Origin: Paludibacter propionicigenes WB4
GTDB taxonomy: Bacteria; Bacteroidota; Bacteroidia; Bacteroidales; Paludibacteraceae
Direction: 5' to 3'
Assembly (NCBI RefSeq): GCF_000183135.1
Contig: NC_014734.1
Location: 1,240,001-1,304,000 of the forward strand
DNA length: 64,000 nt
The position numbers and the translations under genes were made by a program. The notes under the pieces are model-generated. The model saw nothing but the letters and a program-made list of their open reading frames with translations, made no database searches and had not been told where the DNA came from. Shown one piece after another: positions 32,044-58,059 of the stretch (position 1 is its first letter; every line of letters begins with the position of its first letter).

Positions 32044-34500
32044 TCACTCAAACTCCACCACCGTAACACCGGCACCACCAAACTGGATATGTTCGTCGCG
32101 ATAGGTCCGAATGCCGTGGGTGGTTCCAAGATACTGACGAATCATCTGGCGTAACGCTCCGGTACCCGTTCCGTGCAAAATACGAACCGATGCCACACCT
32201 ACCATCACGGCATCGTCGATAAAATACATCACAGCCTGCAACGCTTCGTCGCCACGCATACCGCGCACATCTATTTCCGACTGAAACGTGAGTTTGCGCT
32301 GACGAACTTCGTCGGTAGCCGTGCTGCCCAACGATTCGTATTTACGTGCTTCCTTCTTTAACTGATTATTGCTGATAGCTTCCAGCTGGTTCAGCTTCAC
32401 TGTCGACTTCAGATTACCAAAAGCCACCAATGCCTGCTTGTCCTGCATTTCAATAATAGTTCCGGTAGCCGTTTGTCCTTTCATACGAACGTTGGAACCT
32501 ATTTTGAGGGTTTCGTGTTCAGCATTTGAGGTAGGGACAGGTCGTGACCTGTCCTTATGAATTGGTTTTGGAATTTGGACAGGTCGCGACCTGTCCCTAC
32601 CCGTTTCCGGTTCGTTTCCAATTTTCTTTTTAAAATCATCCAACTCCTTTCGCACCGCTTGTGTTCGAACCTTTTCGGCTTCGGCTTCTTTTATCTGCCG
32701 TATGGTGTTTTCAATCTTCGCATTGGCTTCATTCAACAGATTTTTGGCTTCATCTTTCGCTTTGTTCGTAATTTCCTTACGCTGCTTATCAATGCCGGCC
32801 ATCTCTTCTTCGTACTTAGCCAGTGTCTCTTCCAACCGCTTCTCTTTCTGACGAATTTGCTGGCGTTTGTTTTCCCAATAGCGTTTGTCGCGAACAATAT
32901 CCTGCAAATGCTTGTCGTAATCCAGGTGCTCCGCTCCCACTTTCTCGGCAGCTTCGGCAATCAGGTCTTCGGGCAAACCGATCTTACGGGCAATCTCTAC
33001 GGCAAATGAGCTCCCCGGATTACCAATGCTCAGTTGGAAAAGCGGTTGTAGGTGCTGACGGTCGTAGAGCATAGCTCCGTTTACAATACCTTCGGCATCT
33101 TCGGCGTAATGTTTCAGGTTGGTATAGTGCGTGGTTATCACCCCAAAAGCCAGGTTTTGGTTGAATCGTTCCAGCGTGGCTTCGGCAATGGCTCCACCAA
33201 TCATAGGCTCTGTTCCCGTTCCAAATTCATCAATCAACAGCAAGGTTTTAGGATTGCTGTTTTTGATAAAAAACTTCATGTTCAGCAAATGTGAACTGTA
33301 AGTAGAAAGATCATTTTCGATAGATTGTTCGTCGCCAATATCAATAAACAGCCGTTCGTAAATACCGGCTCGACTACTATCGTGCAACGGCACCAGCAAT
33401 CCGCACTGAAGCATGTATTGCAGCAGCACCACTGTTTTCAGGCACACCGATTTACCGCCGGCGTTCGGACCCGAGATAAGCAGAATGCGTTGTTTCTCAT
33501 TCAGCGTAATATCCAGCGGTACAATTTCTTTTCCTTGTTTTTTGAGCGAAAGGAACAATAAAGGATGAATGGCTTTCGCCCATTCCAACTGACAACAATC
33601 GTCGACCCGTGGTTTAATAGCCTTGATATCTAAACCAAAAAGAGCCTTGGCACGCAGAAAATCAATCTGACCCAGAAAATATTGTGAAGAGAAAATAGAT
33701 TCGGTATACGGACGAACAAAGTTGGTAAAGTCTACCAGAATGCGCATTACCTCCCGACGCTCCTCCCCTTCCAGTTCCCTGACGCGATTGTTGGCCTCTA
33801 CTACTTGCTGAGGTTCTATGAAAACCGTTTTTCCGGTGGCCGATTCATCGTGCACAATACCGTTTACCTTGCGCTTAAAAGCCGGCGAAACGGGAATCAC
33901 CAACCGACCCTCGCGCATGGTAGGTGCCACATCTTTTTCCACATATCCATCGGCCTGCGCCTGACGCAGAATGGAATTAAGCGTACGTGAAATGCCACTT
34001 TGCACCTGAAAAATATCTTTTCGTATACGGGCTAGCTCGGGCGAAGCATTGTCCTTTATCTTTCCGAATTTATTCAGGATGGCATCAATCCTATTGACAA
34101 TCAAAGGAAAAGTTTCAACTTCACTCACCAACTCATGCAAATGCGGATACACTTCCGCTTCGTGCTTGGTCAGAAAAGCAACCAACAAGCGGACAGCTTC
34201 CAATGCACGCCGAAGATCAAAGACCTCCAGCTCATCAAGAAACAGCCCCTCCACCCTGATGCGCGACAAAGCCGGACGCACATCGTAAAAGTCACCGATA
34301 GGCAGTTCGTCGGCATTGGTAGTGAGCACACGCAGCATCTCGTCGGTCTGACTAAGCAAGCGCATCACATCGGCATAGTCCGACGAAAATTGGATTTCAT
34401 CTACTTTCTCTTCACCCAAGGTACTCACGCATTTGTCTTTCAACAATTGGCGAATGGTGGTAAAAGCTATTTTTTGTTCGAAATGATCTGGATAAAGCAT
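32044..34500 (-). CDS. mutS2: Endonuclease MutS2
   Basis: Seen: 818 residues. The MutS core and clamp occupy about 1-320. The ATPase has a Walker A (ISGPNAGGKS, near 340) and Walker B (LLLIDEFGTGTEP). A long Lys/Glu coiled coil (about 520-625) and a KOW-like linker (GSNVRMKGQTATGTIIEM) lead to a C-terminal Smr nuclease domain (about 735-818; IDVRGMRGDEAL and RILHGTGTGALR). Known: MutS2 suppresses homologous recombination and in some bacteria rescues collided ribosomes. Residues about 633-656 are encoded by an inserted palindromic repeat and read DRSRPV twice. The 5' leader contains a heptamer array 8 nt before the ATG. Confidence 0.94.
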   Translation of the reverse strand: MLYPDHFEQKIAFTTIRQLLKDKCVSTLGEEKVDEIQFSSDYADVMRLLSQTDEMLRVLTTNADELPIGDFYDVRPALSRIRVEGLFLDELEVFDLRRALEAVRLLVAFLTKHEAEVYPHLHELVSEVETFPLIVNRIDAILNKFGKIKDNASPELARIRKDIFQVQSGISRTLNSILRQAQADGYVEKDVAPTMREGRLVIPVSPAFKRKVNGIVHDESATGKTVFIEPQQVVEANNRVRELEGEERREVMRILVDFTNFVRPYTESIFSSQYFLGQIDFLRAKALFGLDIKAIKPRVDDCCQLEWAKAIHPLLFLSLKKQGKEIVPLDITLNEKQRILLISGPNAGGKSVCLKTVVLLQYMLQCGLLVPLHDSSRAGIYERLFIDIGDEQSIENDLSTYSSHLLNMKFFIKNSNPKTLLLIDEFGTGTEPMIGGAIAEATLERFNQNLAFGVITTHYTNLKHYAEDAEGIVNGAMLYDRQHLQPLFQLSIGNPGSSFAVEIARKIGLPEDLIAEAAEKVGAEHLDYDKHLQDIVRDKRYWENKRQQIRQKEKRLEETLAKYEEEMAGIDKQRKEITNKAKDEAKNLLNEANAKIENTIRQIKEAEAEKVRTQAVRKELDDFKKKIGNEPETGRDRSRPVQIPKPIHKDRSRPVPTSNAEHETLKIGSNVRMKGQTATGTIIEMQDKQALVAFGNLKSTVKLNQLEAISNNQLKKEARKYESLGSTATDEVRQRKLTFQSEIDVRGMRGDEALQAVMYFIDDAVMVGVASVRILHGTGTGALRQMIRQYLGTTHGIRTYRDEHIQFGGAGVTVVEFE
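32531..32600. repeat. Palindromic repeat element inserted in frame in mutS2
   Basis: Two copies of a 20-bp palindrome, GGACAGGTCGTGACCTGTCC (32535-32554) and GGACAGGTCGCGACCTGTCC (32577-32596), are set as an inverted pair with outer GTAG/CTAC ends and a 22-bp centre. The gene stays open through it and gains two DRSRPV hexapeptides in the linker between coiled coil and Smr domain. Confidence 0.9.
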
Positions 34501-34746: not shown

Positions 34747-35037
34747 GAGACTCTTATTTTTTCGTTTTTTGAGAGCATCACGATTTTTAGGCTCTTATTT
34801 TTTCGTCATTTGCTAACATTTCAAAAGTTTTAGGCTTAAAAATTCGTCATTCTTTGACATTATAAAAGTTTTAGGCTCAAAAATCCGTCGTTTGCTAACA
34901 CAATAAAAATTTCAGGCCTATTTTTTTGTCATTTGCTAACAATATAAAAGTTTTGGTCTTGAAAATTCGTCATTCTTTGACAATATAAATGTTTTAGACT
35001 CAAAAATCCGTCGTTTGCTAACAGTTCGAAAGTTTAG
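34747..35037. repeat. Seven-unit tandem repeat, 40-44 bp period
   Basis: Units start at 34747, 34791, 34834, 34875, 34916, 34956 and 34998. Each opens with GCTC/GCTT-type sequence followed by AAAAATCCGTC or TTTTTTCGTC, then TTTGCTAACA or TTCTTTGACA, and closes with AAAGTTTTAG. Two sub-types alternate, so a three-unit higher-order repeat (34834-34955 and 34956-35037 on) is visible. It ends 8 nt before the next gene's stop codon. Confidence 0.85.
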
Positions 35038-47098: not shown

Positions 47099-47101
47099 GG
47101 T

Positions 47102-47183
47102 GGTTGATTAGTTGATTGGTTGATTGGTTGATTGGATGATTGGATGATTGGATGATTGGTTGATTGGTCAAGTGGTTGATTGG
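47102..47183. repeat. Octamer array, left flank of four-helix-bundle gene 2
   Basis: Ten 8-bp units: GGTTGATT (five), AGTTGATT, GGATGATT (three), GGTCAAGT. It lies between the permease start codon (4 nt away) and an inverse stretch, CCAATCAACTAATCAACC (47216-47233), that runs into the small gene's stop codon. Confidence 0.92.
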
Positions 47184-47227
47184 TTTTACACAACTGACTA
47201 ATTCAACTCATTTGACCAATCAACTAA

Positions 47228-47617: not shown

Positions 47618-47658
47618 ACTTTTGCTCTATTAATCTATTCAACTAAAAGAACTTACTC

Positions 47659-47698
47659 AACCAATCAACTAATTAACCAATCAACCAATTAACTACAT
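47659..47698. repeat. Octamer array, right flank of four-helix-bundle gene 2
   Basis: AACCAATC, AACTAATT, AACCAATC, AACCAATT, AACTACAT: 8-bp units, inverse complement of the array at 47102. The last T is the first base (plus strand) of the aminotransferase stop codon. Confidence 0.9.
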
Positions 47699-52888: not shown

Positions 52889-53884
52889 CTATCTCCGTTT
52901 TAATATTATCCAAATAATAATAGGTGCACCAAACAGCGCACTGACGGTATTAATTGGCAACGTATATGTTGGTATTTGAGTAATAATATCGCAGATAAGC
53001 AACAAGGAAGCACCGCATAAAATTGTAGCGGGTAACAACACTTTATGGCTCGACACTTTAAAGAGTCCGCGTGCAATATGCGGAATGGCTACCCCAACAA
53101 AAGCAATAGGTCCGGTAAAAGCGGTAATGCCTCCTGCCAGTAACCCTGTGGCTATAACGATCAGAAAACGTGTTTGTTGAATGGAAATGCCCAGTCCGCG
53201 AGCATAATTTTCGCCAAGAAGCAAACCGTCAAGGCGCTTTTGCAATGAAAAAGCCATGCCTAACCCTATCAGTACCACCGGGAGCAATACAGTCATGTAA
53301 GTCCAGGTCACGGCGCTCAGGCTACCGAATGTCCACATTACAAAGAGCTTAATAGCATCGGGATTGCTAAAGTTCTGCAACACGCTGACCAATGAACCTG
53401 CAATGGTGCCAAACATCAACCCTACTATTAGTAACGAAACGGCATTATGCACCTTAAACGACACACCTACCACCAGTATCAACACCACCGATGCACCGAC
53501 AATGGCCGACACAATCAGAGCCCAACCGCTGCTGACAAATGCGACAGGAAGAAAAGTTGCCGCCATCATGACCAACGCCACACCCAGACTGGCACCCGAA
53601 CTGACTCCGAGAATATACGGATCGGCCAGCGAATTGCGAAACAGCGTCTGCATCATCAAACCCGCTACCGACAACGAAGCACCTGCCAGCACCGCCGTAA
53701 TGGCTTTAGGCAAGCGGAAGTTGAGTAATATTTCGGAATTAATTCCATCCCCACTCTTCCTGAAAAACACGTCGATAATCTCGCTCAACGATATGTGAAT
53801 GCTTCCCCAAGCTAAATCGACCAGAAAAAGCCCCACTGCAAGGAGTGAAAGAATAAGAAATAGTATAAGGGAACGGGATTTCAT
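52889..53884 (-). CDS. FecCD/BtuC-like ABC transporter permease
   Basis: Seen: 331 residues from the ATG at 53884. About nine or ten hydrophobic segments. Family blocks are FRLPKAITAVLAGASLSVAG (near 55-74), QTLFRNSLADPYILGVSSGA, GAITAFTGPIAFVGVAIPHI-like GGITAFTGPIAFVGVAIPHI and the closing PIIIWIILKRR. Known: forms the membrane channel for siderophore, haem or cobalamin import. The upstream small membrane protein gene ends 39 bp away and the ATPase follows across the repeat block. Confidence 0.93.
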   Translation of the reverse strand: MKSRSLILFLILSLLAVGLFLVDLAWGSIHISLSEIIDVFFRKSGDGINSEILLNFRLPKAITAVLAGASLSVAGLMMQTLFRNSLADPYILGVSSGASLGVALVMMAATFLPVAFVSSGWALIVSAIVGASVVLILVVGVSFKVHNAVSLLIVGLMFGTIAGSLVSVLQNFSNPDAIKLFVMWTFGSLSAVTWTYMTVLLPVVLIGLGMAFSLQKRLDGLLLGENYARGLGISIQQTRFLIVIATGLLAGGITAFTGPIAFVGVAIPHIARGLFKVSSHKVLLPATILCGASLLLICDIITQIPTYTLPINTVSALFGAPIIIWIILKRR

Positions 53885-53922
53885 TAAAAAAACTTTAAAA
53901 TACAATTATTACTCAGCTGATT

Positions 53923-54591
53923 TCAGTTATTCTCTATTACTTTTAGCCAATAAAGAGGAAACTTCATAAATATCTTTGTCTCGTTAGTCTGAAAGTCCAG
54001 CCCTACAGGTACATTCAAAAACGAAGCCCTTTCGACAACCGGATTCAACTCTGTCAATTTTGATTCAAACAAGCATTCATTTTCATCTGAGGAGTAAAAA
54101 TACAATCGTTCATTATCCAGAATTAATCTGCCATACGTTCTAAACATTATTGAATCTTCATAATACGCAGAATCTGTGAGTGACAGATCATCCAGCTCTT
54201 GATTTCCGGTTGATTTGACTAGTTTTTTAAACTTCAAATAACCGGTATTATCTGAAGCGTTACCCCGAAAGAATCCGACCAACGTGAACACGGCAACGAA
54301 AGACAGAGATCGCATCAAATCAACCTGTTGAGTTCTAATTAGCGTAAAGAAAGCCATGAACGTGCCAAAAAACAACCCATAAGATAAACCGTAAACCAGA
54401 AATCGAATTCTGAATAACCATTGGGGAGGATTTGAATAATCCCGAATCATATATACCAGAAAATTCAATCCCAGTGCCAGTACGATAAACTGAGCTATTG
54501 AAGAGTAAGAAAAATGTTCTGATTTATCGAAAGACAAAACAAAAGTAAGTGCAAAAAGTAAAAAGACTGCCAGGATTATGATTTTCTTCAT
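53923..54591 (-). CDS. Membrane protein of unknown function inside the uptake gene cluster
   Basis: Seen: 222 residues with four hydrophobic segments (about 3-20, 31-49, 65-87, 92-108) and a soluble C-terminal half (about 110-222) rich in beta-prone stretches: LILDNERLYFYSSDENECLF and VGLDFQTNETKIFMKFPLYW. I do not recognise a family; the C-terminal half recalls GRAM/PH-like folds only vaguely. It is placed between the repeat arrays and the permease gene in the same direction. Whether it belongs to the transporter is unclear. Confidence 0.65.
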   Translation of the reverse strand: MKKIIILAVFLLFALTFVLSFDKSEHFSYSSIAQFIVLALGLNFLVYMIRDYSNPPQWLFRIRFLVYGLSYGLFFGTFMAFFTLIRTQQVDLMRSLSFVAVFTLVGFFRGNASDNTGYLKFKKLVKSTGNQELDDLSLTDSAYYEDSIMFRTYGRLILDNERLYFYSSDENECLFESKLTELNPVVERASFLNVPVGLDFQTNETKIFMKFPLYWLKVIENN

Positions 54592-54699
54592 ATTACAACT
54601 CTACATTTTAGGCTTTCCCAATCGCGGGGATATTTATATTCGTAATCAAACAAGCATTCAAAATCTTCTGAATTATTTTTTTCCCCTCTCCAAATACCG

Positions 54700-54882
54700 T
54701 CCGAACTTTCGGAATCCTTCGCTGAGGGGTCAACCATACTTTCCGAACTCACGGAGATTGCCGTTGATAGCTCATAGGTACTTTCCGAACTTTCGGAATT
54801 AACCATTGAGGGGTCAGCGGAGCTTTCCGAACTCTCGGAATCCTTCGCCGAGGGGTCAACCGTACTTTCCGAACCTTCGGAC
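54700..54882. repeat. 42-bp period palindrome array, first block (TCCGAAC type)
   Basis: Five 15-bp cores (TCCGAACTTTCGGAA and variants) start at 54700, 54742, 54784, 54826 and 54868, exactly 42 bp apart. They are separated by 27-bp spacers that are partly alike (CGCCGAGGGGTCAACCGTAC type). The block opens after ATACCG and closes with CGGACGG. Confidence 0.95.
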
Positions 54883-54908
54883 GGCTTTTCCATTATCCTG
54901 AAATACCG

Positions 54909-55091
54909 TCCCAACGTTGGGAATCTCCTTCCGAGGCATCAAACAAGCTTTCCCAACGTTGGGAATGTTGTTCCGAGGGGTCAACGAAACTTTCCCAACC
55001 TTGGGATTTAACCAATGAGCCCTCAACTATCCATTCCCAACCTTGGGAATCTCTCGCCGAGGGGTCAGCGGAGCTTTCCCAACCTTGGGAC
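54909..55091. repeat. 42-bp period palindrome array, second block (TCCCAAC type)
   Basis: Five 15-bp cores (TCCCAACCTTGGGAA and variants) start at 54909, 54951, 54993, 55035 and 55077, exactly 42 bp apart, with 27-bp spacers like those of the first block. It also opens after ATACCG and closes with TTGGGAC. Both arms of every core differ from the first block at the same position (G/C exchange), so pairing is kept. TACCTTTG on the minus strand (55106-55113) could drive transcription through both blocks. The remaining gap to 55303 shows no gene. Confidence 0.95.
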
Positions 55092-55303
55092 GCAATTTTC
55101 GATGCCAAAGGTACTAAATAATCTCAATTTATTAACTCAACTTGTACAAAAAAGAGGGTATCTCAAAAGAAAGCAGGAACGTAAAAACTGCAAATCGACA
55201 CAAAACACAGATTACTGATATAGTGACATCTATAAAAATGACATTTGCGAAAATTTGTGTGATTTGCGTTCAAAAAAGCACTTATTGGACAGCTACCCTA
55301 GAG

Positions 55304-56431
55304 CTATTTCAATTTTTCAACATACGTAAGGATATATCCCGGCAAAATTTCGGGATGCAGAATGGCAATCATATCCGAAAGCAATAAATCGGGGCGTGCC
55401 ACAGCACTCTCCCAAAAATCATTGGCCGTGGAAGGCAACAGGCGCTTATTGATATTATAAACCTGCTTTAGTTGCACCGGGCGGAAAAGTGCGTGTTTCG
55501 AATCGGCCTTCACCAGCTCGTCCAGCGAATTAAAATTACAATTCAACCACACGTCGGTCTGCGAAAAGTTTTTCAACACCGTTTCCACATTCAGCGGCAG
55601 ACTTCCGGCCGTAGTGTCGTTGGCATAAAAATAGCGGCTACCTGCATCGGCAAAGAGTTTGCCCATAAAATTACGCCCCGACGGCATATACCATGTTCCA
55701 CGGAAATTGGAGCCCACCATGATGTTGGGTTTCGTTTTTACCCCGGCAGCTTTCGCTTTTATGTCGTTGTATCGCTTATCCACATCGGCAAAAATGCTGT
55801 CGGCCTGTTTCTCTTTATTGTAAAATGCCGCCACAAATTTGATCCATTCTGCCCGTGCCAACAGCGAAGTTTCCATCCATTCGTTATTAAACAGTACAGG
55901 AATTCCGGCTTGCGAAACACGTTGTGCGTAGGGATCATTCTGGTTATAGCCGCTCATCATCAATGCTCCGGGCTTTAGTTGCAGAGTTTTCTCTACATTG
56001 ATGGTAAAGGCATCGCCCAAATCGGCAATCCGCCCTTCGGCAAAGCGTTTGTTGATTTCTTTATTGTAGATAATGCGTGGCGAGCAAACGCCCACAATGG
56101 TTTCCACCTGCCCCAGCAAGCTCAAAAACTCAAAATGAGTGACCGACGTGGCAACCAAGGTACGAAGCGGAACCTGCACCTTTGTGCCATCGGAAGGTGT
56201 CTTCACGGAAGCATCTTTCACTAGATAGTAACGGGCATACACCGTGCCTTTCACCCACGGACTGTATACAATCACTTCTTTATAATCAGGGAAATACTTT
56301 ACGGCAAATCCCTGCGCATAACTAAGTTTCAATGTGTCGTTGGTTTGTGCATTGGTCGTTTTGGCACTTTTGGGAGTACACGAAAACAAAAAGCAAAGGA
56401 AAAGTAGTGGAATAAGAAAAATCTTTTTCAT
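55304..56431 (-). CDS. Substrate-binding lipoprotein of a FecCD-type ABC importer (BtuF-like)
   Basis: Seen: 375 residues from the ATG at 56431 (MKKIFLIPLLFL). Lipobox LCFLFSC gives Cys18. The two-lobed class III binding-protein pattern is visible: VEKTLQLKPGALMMSGYN, GIPVLFNNEWMETSLLARAE and an inter-lobe helix (about 200-225). The family's metal-chelate-binding type matches the neighbouring FecCD permease and FecE ATPase. Known: delivers iron chelates, haem or cobalamin to the permease. Cobalamin is attractive because MutAB in this window needs B12, but no cobalamin riboswitch is visible upstream. Confidence 0.88.
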   Translation of the reverse strand: MKKIFLIPLLFLCFLFSCTPKSAKTTNAQTNDTLKLSYAQGFAVKYFPDYKEVIVYSPWVKGTVYARYYLVKDASVKTPSDGTKVQVPLRTLVATSVTHFEFLSLLGQVETIVGVCSPRIIYNKEINKRFAEGRIADLGDAFTINVEKTLQLKPGALMMSGYNQNDPYAQRVSQAGIPVLFNNEWMETSLLARAEWIKFVAAFYNKEKQADSIFADVDKRYNDIKAKAAGVKTKPNIMVGSNFRGTWYMPSGRNFMGKLFADAGSRYFYANDTTAGSLPLNVETVLKNFSQTDVWLNCNFNSLDELVKADSKHALFRPVQLKQVYNINKRLLPSTANDFWESAVARPDLLLSDMIAILHPEILPGYILTYVEKLK

Positions 56432-56450
56432 CGGTTGTATATTTAAACGC

Positions 56451-56506
56451 AAAAACCGCAGAGCCGAATGGTCCGCGGTTATTGGATTATGGAAACTATG
56501 CGGTTT
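56451..56506 (-). terminator. Candidate terminator between the MFS gene and the binding-protein gene
   Basis: AAAACCGCA (minus strand, from 56506) pairs with TGCGGTTTTT (to 56451), with an inner AACCGCGG section; T-rich end in the leftward direction. Confidence 0.6.
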
Positions 56507-56553
56507 TATTTCTTTCCGCAAAGATAATAGGAAATTATGAACACCGAATTATT

Positions 56554-58059
56554 TTAATGTACGTTTTTGGTAGTAGCCGAAGCACCGGCCGACGATTCGG
56601 GTTCATGTACAAATATCCAGAACACCACCGACGCAGCCACTAACAATCCGCAAAAGATATACAGCAACTGATGGTTACCGGTGGCTTTAATAACGTTGGC
56701 CACACCGTTGCTCATCATCTGAGGCAATACGACTGCTAAATTAAATACACCCATATACAAACCCATTTTGGCCGGATTCACGCGTTCGCTCATAATGGCA
56801 AACACAATGGAAATAACCGCCGACCAACCGATACCCACAAGGAACATACCGATATAAAAGTCGAGCTCTACCCTGCTGAAATAGGCAATATAGAAATAGC
56901 CGATTACCGAAAAGATAAGCGCCCCGATGTAAGTCCTGACCCGACCAATGCGCTTGGCGATGGATTGTAATATCAAGGGGAAAATAGCCCCGATCAGGTT
57001 GAGGATAAAGAAACCGAGCGAAACAATATTCCCCACCGACGAAGCCGGGGTTTGCGTTGCGCCCGTGAGTTTTTCGGCAAACCAGTTGGCGGTAATGCCT
57101 TTTAGTCCGATGTTGGGGAGAATTTGATTCTCGATAAAAAAGCCGGAAAGAATAAACATGCTCTGAAAAGCCACCCAGGTAAACGAGTGCGCAAGCATGA
57201 TTTTTTGAAACTCATTGCGGTTCGACGGATGTTTAATTCCCTGAACAATGATGATAATGCCAATGATGACCGAATAAAGTAGTGCGGCAATCAAAACCGG
57301 ATTGTGCCACGCGCCCAACGCTTCGGGGAAAAAGTGGAAAAACAGGCTGAAAATGCCAAACACCAAAAATCCATACAGCGGAAATATTTCCTGAAATATC
57401 TGCCAAACACCAAACTTCTCCTGATTTTCGGACAGAGCAGCTTCCTGTTCTTTTTTTTCCTGAATAAACAGAATGGGAAACACAGCGGTGAGAAACACAA
57501 TGCCAGCCGCAATGTACAACAGCATTTCATTTCCAAAAAGCATGGATAAAAAGTAGGCAAATACGCCGAAAAAGCCCGAAATGATCTGCATCCACACATA
57601 ACCGGCGGTGCGCACTTTGCCTTCGGGGGTCAAGTCGGCAATAATGGAGCGGGCGGGGTTGAAAGTTACGTTGACCGACAAGTCGAGGAACAAAGCGATG
57701 ACGGACGCAATGAGGATAATGTCCGAAATGCCCGTGATATGCGAAATACCCCGAATGTGAGGCAGTGTAAGGAAAGCAATGCTGCTGACCATGCCACCAA
57801 TAATGATAAACGGCCTGCGACGACCACCCATAAACCAGACATTATCGCTCAACAGGCCCACGATGACCTGCCCAAAGATACCCGCAATGGGTCCGGCCAA
57901 CCAAACGAAGGCTACATCGTGAATGTCCAGATGATATTTATTGGAAAGTATCCAGCTCAGTGCGGCAATTTGAGTGGATAACGCAAAACCAACTGCCGTG
58001 GCAGGCAGCCCGAGCAACGCCAGGAAAGCATTGCTCATTTTCTTTTGAATGTTCAGCAT
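56554..58059 (-). CDS. MFS sugar transporter (SLC45/GPH-like)
   Basis: Seen: 501 residues, 12 predicted membrane helices in two groups with a Glu/Lys-rich loop (QEKKEQEAALSENQEKFG) between them. GLLSDNVWFMGGRRRPFIII near residues 68-87 is the MFS loop 2-3 motif. FNPARSIIADLTPEGKVRTA and MSERVNPAKMGLYMGVFN are typical of the sucrose/maltose-type branch. Known: proton-coupled sugar uptake. No glycosidase or sugar regulator is adjacent, so substrate is open. It is leftward, upstream of the binding-protein gene, probably separately transcribed. Confidence 0.85.
   Translation of the reverse strand: MLNIQKKMSNAFLALLGLPATAVGFALSTQIAALSWILSNKYHLDIHDVAFVWLAGPIAGIFGQVIVGLLSDNVWFMGGRRRPFIIIGGMVSSIAFLTLPHIRGISHITGISDIILIASVIALFLDLSVNVTFNPARSIIADLTPEGKVRTAGYVWMQIISGFFGVFAYFLSMLFGNEMLLYIAAGIVFLTAVFPILFIQEKKEQEAALSENQEKFGVWQIFQEIFPLYGFLVFGIFSLFFHFFPEALGAWHNPVLIAALLYSVIIGIIIIVQGIKHPSNRNEFQKIMLAHSFTWVAFQSMFILSGFFIENQILPNIGLKGITANWFAEKLTGATQTPASSVGNIVSLGFFILNLIGAIFPLILQSIAKRIGRVRTYIGALIFSVIGYFYIAYFSRVELDFYIGMFLVGIGWSAVISIVFAIMSERVNPAKMGLYMGVFNLAVVLPQMMSNGVANVIKATGNHQLLYIFCGLLVAASVVFWIFVHEPESSAGASATTKNVH

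Follow-up and report, generated by a model that had tools for sequence, protein, structure and literature searches.

The twin palindrome array described here belongs to a class of phased palindrome arrays spread across Bacteroidota, and within this class symmetry is conserved while the letters are not. The array lies in a stretch of 64,000 nucleotides from Paludibacter propionicigenes WB4 (NC_014734.1, positions 1,240,001 to 1,304,000; hereafter the window, with all coordinates counted from its first letter). The observation is real and more general than first noted, and the array is probably a palindrome-cluster element with an unexpected partner gene, which encodes a DUF6261 protein (PF19775). 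Our tentative preference, at slightly less than an even chance, is that these are helically phased dyad arrays acting at the DNA level, in which template-switch correction or selection for symmetry keeps the arms alike.

Block 1 of the window array (54699..54882, neither strand assigned) consists of five TCCGAA..TTCGGA palindromes with outer bases G..C, and its units start at 54700, 54742, 54784, 54826, and 54868. Block 2 (54908..55091, likewise unstranded) consists of five TCCCAA..TTGGGA palindromes with the same outer bases, starting at 54909, 54951, 54993, 55035, and 55077. The spacing within each block is exactly 42 bp, and the two sets of four 28-bp spacers occupy 54714..54867 and 54923..55076 with units 2–4 in between. 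Phase is kept across the inter-block linker (54882..54908), where 41 bp lead from the last unit of block 1 to the first unit of block 2. The first-pass annotation had recognized ten palindromic cores on this strict period, with the arms changed in concert, one word per block, and ATACCG ahead of both blocks. The ten units and their period stand, whereas the cores are 14 bp rather than 15 bp, or 16 bp when a flanking T..A is included in some units. Arm position 4/11 is indeed switched throughout, being G-C in all five units of block 1 and C-G in all five of block 2. Pairing holds at 5/10 in nine and at 6/9 in eight of the ten units; the poorest is the imperfect unit 2 of block 1, TCCGAACTCACGGA. 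ATACCG does precede each block, each block runs from an opening GTCC to a closing GGAC, and the inner units carry TTCC/GGAA or near variants. Reading by eye, we also noted a weaker dyad near the midpoint of some block 1 spacers (e.g., CCTTCGCCGAGGG).

At 42 bp, the longest TCC-N8-GGA chain was five in the window and one in each of 200 shuffles that preserved dinucleotides (a few of these fell short of full length by up to 0.5%); the array is not a product of chance. It shares short repeats and regular spacing with CRISPR. CRISPR spacers are unrelated and unique, whereas those of the window show partial relatedness (the alignment of block 1 spacers 1 and 4 scores 26 over 28 bp, and the remaining block 1 pairs score 15–17), and the repeat word differs between blocks. 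When the genome itself was scanned as a single contig of 3,685,504 bases, 9 of 17 pattern matches fell at the window locus on the plus strand and two more were the same sites on the minus strand. BLAST of the whole window array against this genome found no other convincing copy. The few other array loci of the genome have words that differ from those of the window, except for L305 near 2,527,266, which has the block 1 word; at approximately 2760–2940 of that locus, TTCCGAA..TTCGGAA occurs in part of the units, and no DUF6261 match was found there at an E value of 1e-4. At approximately 2708–2765 of L304, near 2,465,208, a palindrome pair TCCAC..GTGGA is 41 bp apart.

The twin array is intergenic. 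Downstream on the minus strand (53923..54591) lies a gene for a 222-aa protein with a hydrophobic N-terminal part, which is not DUF6261 and has a weak LNT_N match under the curated cut-off. The upstream neighbor (55304..56521, minus strand) encodes a periplasmic binding protein (Peripla_BP_2). The nine window proteins within 49–61 kb that were scanned against Pfam include transporters, a GTPase, and similar proteins. The array had been placed in a transport gene cluster, but this location looks incidental, since flanking genes are of many kinds at the ten loci where neighbors were looked up. Rfam returned nothing at the gathering score for 53800–57500, DUF6261 had no match in the window at an E value of 1, and the window pair is an orphan without a DUF6261 gene. 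Approximately 15 bp ahead of block 2 on the minus strand, at 55106..55113, is TACCTTTG, a promoter-like box of the Bacteroidota type. Judging from this box, minus-strand transcription of the array is plausible.

Other repeats were observed in the window as well. A second tandem array (34802–35023), AT-rich and with a 41-bp period, lies between a 262-aa gene and a gene that we presume from its sequence to be mutS2-like; it could represent a diverged array of this class. Two palindromes (GGACAGGTC..GACCTGTCC; 32532–32600) lie 42 bp apart within the frame of the mutS2-like gene, and 8-bp tandem repeats (TGGTTGAT and TCAACCAA) are located at 47101–47185 and 47657–47693.

A search of Bacteroidota genomes for such palindromes, which the first-pass annotation had proposed, found similar arrays across Bacteroidota. 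The window-type word was matched in 19 of 393 same-order genomes, its own included, with chance and unrelated matches among them. A wider pattern was matched in 12 of 54 chosen genomes, and a further pattern applied to a collection of 84,980 species returned at least 117 stretches, all 117 of them usable. The window and 100 loci (L070–L169) contain 110 chains of at least three units, each with 3 to 11 units; in this count the window's two blocks are one chain, and at a few loci two chains out of phase with each other were counted. Reading by eye, and omitting the orthologous copies L076 and L077, seven window-like blocks with G..C ends have five units (the two window blocks, two at L072, and one each at L074, L075, and L081) and two have six (L073 and L071, the latter with one 13-base unit). 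The intergenic regions that contain arrays include tandem, convergent, and divergent ones. Among the 110 blocks, 32 are clearly intergenic, 11 are at contig edges, and 67 overlap open frames of at least 110 aa from automatic calling, most of which are short. No description of such arrays was found in the open-access literature, and one may exist elsewhere.

To what extent the paired arms covary was determined from 68 blocks, assigned to Bacteroidota by record title and drawn from 80 of the at least 117 pattern loci (L101, which repeats L081, was left out). The inner eight bases of these blocks were unselected, and the blocks contain 62 consensus words. Position 4/11 is Watson-Crick in 50 of the 68 blocks (25.5 when shuffled) and position 5/10 in 41 (19.1 when shuffled), values that 0 of 5000 shuffles reached in either case; pairing at 6/9 occurs in 28 blocks, and 480 of 5000 shuffles were as high. 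A further set (L170–L206), unfiltered and with all taxa taken, gave 33/42, 25/42, and 13/42 for the same three positions, the first two again with 0 of 5000 shuffles as high. For 18 blocks labelled non-Bacteroidota, 4/11 pairing was 6/18 and 5/10 pairing was 11/18 (shuffled 5.0, 17 of 5000 as high), though this control is impure because two of the 18 come from L135, an uncultured bacterium that matches a contig of G107, a genome of the window's order. Random single-arm changes without block-wise uniformity, which the first-pass annotation had named as the outcome that would speak against it, were not encountered; other arrays show the same concerted pattern as the window. The uniformity is not absolute, however, since single-arm inner changes separate close relatives and L105 mixes C-G and G-C units, with all seven paired. 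The unit changes between G219 and G300, read by eye, are at inner positions, some of them in a single arm and none at 4/11. We considered whether the twin array is unusually conserved between these two genomes and discarded the idea: its 95.6% identity over 431 bp is not exceptional beside flanking windows with values of 77.9 to 96.6%.

The words are more uniform than the sequences that separate them. Spacer identity is below 0.62 in 14 of 46 blocks, including the window and G219-type arrays, and the mean word identity of these 14 is 0.88 (positions 4, 5, 10, and 11), while their spacers are at 0.35–0.61 versus 0.30–0.42 when shuffled. For example, word identity is 0.90 at L072 with spacers at 0.36 (0.30 shuffled) and 1.00 at L081 with spacers at 0.52 (0.33 shuffled). 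In addition, the block 1 spacers of the window resemble the L081 spacers on the reverse strand (scoring as high as 22 across 28 bp) although the word differs. We infer from this likeness that the switch of word may have occurred in block 1. Ordinary tandem duplication is also at work, since spacers are near-identical in many other blocks. These near-identical spacers would be expected of a neutral minisatellite, just as a period divisible by 3, the block 1 frame that is open on the minus strand, and the 67 blocks that overlap called frames would be expected of protein-coding 14-residue repeats. However, the reading frame of the window array shifts at the 41-bp linker, the block 2 frame hits a stop just past the block, many related arrays have a 41-bp period, and the window-like arrays combine uniform words with diverged spacers. 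We find a coding repeat or a neutral minisatellite hardly credible. Taken together, the related spacers, the word differing by block, and the words that stayed uniform while spacers diverged uphold the initial view that the array is neither CRISPR nor an ordinary minisatellite.

The spacing of the units may reflect the geometry of the double helix. With the spacing left free between 26 and 56 bp, three TTCC-N8-GGAA units were matched in 13 of 295 genomes. From the coordinates of the places listed, the spacing is 41–43 bp in 11 of these genomes, 32 bp in G085, and 33 bp in G055, values that are near four and three helix turns; reading by eye, several of the 11 have inner bases that do not form a palindrome. 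The inter-block distances at three twin loci are 41 bp (window), 42 bp (L075), and 82 bp (L072). Furthermore, a second dyad peaks exactly at mid-spacer (21 bp), at 0.51 versus 0.27 for shuffled spacers, in 58 blocks that had been filtered for A-word pairing, with the midway dyad itself unselected. With orthologues dropped, the pairs of the mid-spacer dyad at distances 2–9 are 0.43–0.62 Watson-Crick. The arrays consist of dyads of approximately 16–18 bp every 20.5–21 bp, in which strong A words, 41–42 bp apart, alternate with weaker B words. Dyad autocorrelation of seven Paludibacter leaders placed a lag of 21 or 42 first in five, with other lags for L303 and L307, and the top lag of 21 or 42 does not exceed shuffles in the L071 leader. 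It should be noted that most searches required the 41–42 bp period, which could be inherited rather than maintained. Dyads of 16–18 bp, helical phasing, and a uniform word within a block could also describe tandem operators for sequence-specific dimeric regulators, with one regulator per word. However, 62 words in 68 blocks would need many regulators, and similar DUF6261 proteins have unrelated words upstream; we consider operators very improbable.

Neither the 21-bp second dyad nor the link to DUF6261 was part of the first account of this array. Flank scans found PF19775 adjoining the arrays L070 and L071 of the same genome, and also L078 and L081, and a profile built from these four proteins was used to find DUF6261 beside other arrays. 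Expressed as locus counts rather than as genome-wide enrichment, an array lies 5′ of a DUF6261 gene within 400 bp at 12 of the 117 pattern-selected loci listed (L101, L102, L103, L124, L130, L150, L156, L173, L174, L185, L187, and L206; the L124 record is titled Fibrobacter), 3′ at one (L182), and far away at L113 and L116. Pfam confirms ten of the proteins, from nine 5′ loci and L182, with DUF6261 as the sole family above the cut-off; the scanned set was without L102, L150, and L174, which are cut by contig ends. An array 5′ to DUF6261 was not found at the other 105 of the 117 loci, some of them short or contig-cut, and DUF6261 may therefore be a user of the arrays rather than their partner. 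Among the neighbors of 75 palindromic loci, DUF6261 is the largest BLAST-related group, with eight loci, all of them with the array 5′, and the next two groups have three loci each. At loci without DUF6261, arrays are 5′ of 32 and 3′ of 43 neighbors within 250 bp, with no 5′ preference. A second neighbor group with 5′ arrays (at 103–178 bp) is formed by proteins of approximately 320 aa at L083, L090, and L199; the two members scanned had no Pfam match.

The DUF6261 genes that were reached by homology to L070, among the matches listed, all have palindromes 5′: TTGCTCA..TGAGCAA at L303 in the same genome, TTCTC..GAGAA at L307, and GTCCCA..TGGGAC at L308. The period in these leaders is clear at L308, secondary at L303, and weak at L307. 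At L080, a DUF6261 remnant is fused to the array. DUF6261 proteins that are 63% identical have unrelated words while proteins that are 33% identical share a word, which indicates that the symmetry rather than the word persists. Just before the DUF6261 start, a TCTTA..TAAGA dyad is conserved in Paludibacter (L070, L303, L307, L078, and L308). The structural model of DUF6261 is composed entirely of helices (pLDDT 91, pTM 0.60). A sequence search of the PDB found nothing at an E value of 1, and Foldseek of the model against the PDB and viral models found no match at 0.001. The best VIA-align Z score, 9.6, was with a helical sensor domain; unrelated helical bundles are stated to give scores of this size, and we claim no fold. 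PADLOC matched neither the window gene nor any of three DUF6261 proteins, and the open-access literature on DUF6261 yielded a mention in a mutation table only. No toxin role is known for DUF6261.

The position of the arrays 5′ of DUF6261 could be that of a leader RNA, in which a string of hairpins in the 5′ untranslated region acts like a type III antitoxin RNA or as an RNA regulator of DUF6261. In a scan with a loose consensus and no shuffle control, a promoter-like TAnnTT(T/C)G box was found upstream of the array at 11 of 16 DUF6261 loci and at none between the array and the start codon. By this arrangement the array would lie in a transcribed leader, and it may be transcribed. The compensatory arms are consistent with a leader RNA, as is strong folding (z < -4 in 51 and z < -2 in 55 of 58 blocks), but the z-scores do not discriminate between RNA and DNA because palindromes fold on either strand. 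Over distinct units, there are 23 G.T and 32 A.C mismatches in the 58 blocks, and 3 and 9, respectively, in blocks oriented by tandem or same-strand genes; polarization within blocks is not significant (0.10). In the sense A words of DUF6261-linked arrays, with L303 left out, A.C mismatches exceed G.T (G.U in RNA) by 18 to 7, while the B words have 41 G.T and 35 A.C and no A.C excess. Hence, neither the 58 blocks nor the DUF6261-linked arrays have an excess of sense-strand G.U in the A words, which lends no support to sense RNA hairpins and fits action at the DNA level without proving a DNA function. In addition, the sense strand folds more stably than the antisense strand in 6 of 17 DUF6261-linked arrays and less stably in 11, and 9 of the 110 blocks are between convergent genes. 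A leader RNA is in our estimate possible but doubtful. The all-helical prediction for DUF6261, without a confident structural relative, speaks neither for nor against an RNA enzyme. Single-sequence folding of the window also gave a mirrored pairing of units (1 with 5, 2 with 4). A block-wide mirrored hairpin was rejected in seven five-unit blocks, where mirror spacers are no more complementary than others, with a mean score of 12.04 versus 12.59 for non-mirror, 13.04 for self, and 10.82 for shuffled spacers.

A protein-linked comparison is with type III toxin-antitoxin systems. In toxIN, cptIN, and tenpIN, one promoter serves a protein gene and, immediately 5′ to it, several tandem repeats of some 34–53 nt (PMC6315513); the arrays share with them the repeats in front of a protein gene. 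The array repeats are palindromic, whereas type III repeats are pseudoknots. The partner of the arrays is the predicted all-helical DUF6261, most arrays are without such a gene, and the A words are without a sense-strand RNA signature. No toxin of a known type III family was found among ten array neighbors searched against Pfam and three against PADLOC.

A different explanation is that the arrays are REP/BIME-like, non-autonomous mobile palindromes that are spread by a hairpin-recognizing transposase and have no host function. As described elsewhere (PMC2817692), such elements are intergenic clusters of regularly spaced palindromic units, sometimes of two types, and BIMEs have several palindrome types in which pairing is preserved when the sequence changes. 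The window array is likewise an extragenic palindrome cluster with preserved pairing. The tandem, convergent, and divergent settings of the arrays are consistent with mobility, as are the homologous, colinear blocks at two loci of G219 and the absence of the L075 array from the matching site of a related species (G002), where 110 bp rather than 525 bp separate the conserved flanks; in G300 these flanks are on separate contigs. In contrast to REP/BIME, no one unit sequence was found in many copies across a genome. Few copies were found per genome, without a genome-wide word; the 21/42-bp phasing is strict; words are switched block by block; and the arrays are linked to DUF6261 without a clear dependence on a RAYT/Y1 transposase. 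The Y1 family PF01797, scanned in 41 of the 54 genomes, is matched in 9 of 12 genomes with a match to the wider array pattern and in 26 of 29 without one. The three array genomes without PF01797 (G424, G064, and G093) are drafts, and the words of G093 are not palindromic inside. The genome of the window has four PF01797 matches, none of them beside an array among the neighbors scanned. On balance, we judge mobile palindromes without a host function to be unlikely. The arrays also resemble the BrickBuilt MITE of Porphyromonas gingivalis, in that both are Bacteroidota intergenic tandem repeats predicted as long stem-loops. According to its description (PMC4596501), BrickBuilt has 23-nt repeats without spacers between leader and tail ends, and no BLASTn match outside its species. 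The arrays have instead a 42-bp period with spacers, a switched word, and a second dyad, and the window array does not follow the BrickBuilt layout of 23-nt units without spacers, leader, and tail.

Our preferred reading, a DNA-level array of phased dyads, would work as follows. The array would act as double-stranded or locally extruded DNA, with its dyads on one face of the helix and recognized by shape or as hairpins rather than by a fixed word. As such, it would be a cis-acting regulatory or architectural element, for which DUF6261 is the best candidate partner where present. When one arm changes, hairpin-templated (quasipalindrome) synthesis may copy the change to the partner arm, or selection for symmetry may retain it. 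Exchange among the mutually complementary arms of neighboring units could then spread one word through a block while the spacers drift. In yeast, quasipalindrome template switching is reported to turn imperfect inverted repeats into perfect ones (PMC3820800). Such switching could apply array-wide because every arm can pair with every other. For the window locus, template switching is what we would infer by analogy, and selection for symmetry explains the same data. The window pair itself, which has no DUF6261 gene, would be a copy that was dispersed or left behind.

It is conceivable, although doubtful, that array and DUF6261 form an undescribed two-part system, in which the protein reads the shape of the lattice, loci drift to their own words, and detached arrays are satellites or decoys. 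Regardless, the arrays are a countable class of bacterial repeats in which symmetry is kept and sequence is not, and their natural covariation data offer a test of how palindromic arms stay alike in DNA. With them, DUF6261, a family without an assigned function, gains a recurrent genomic partner.
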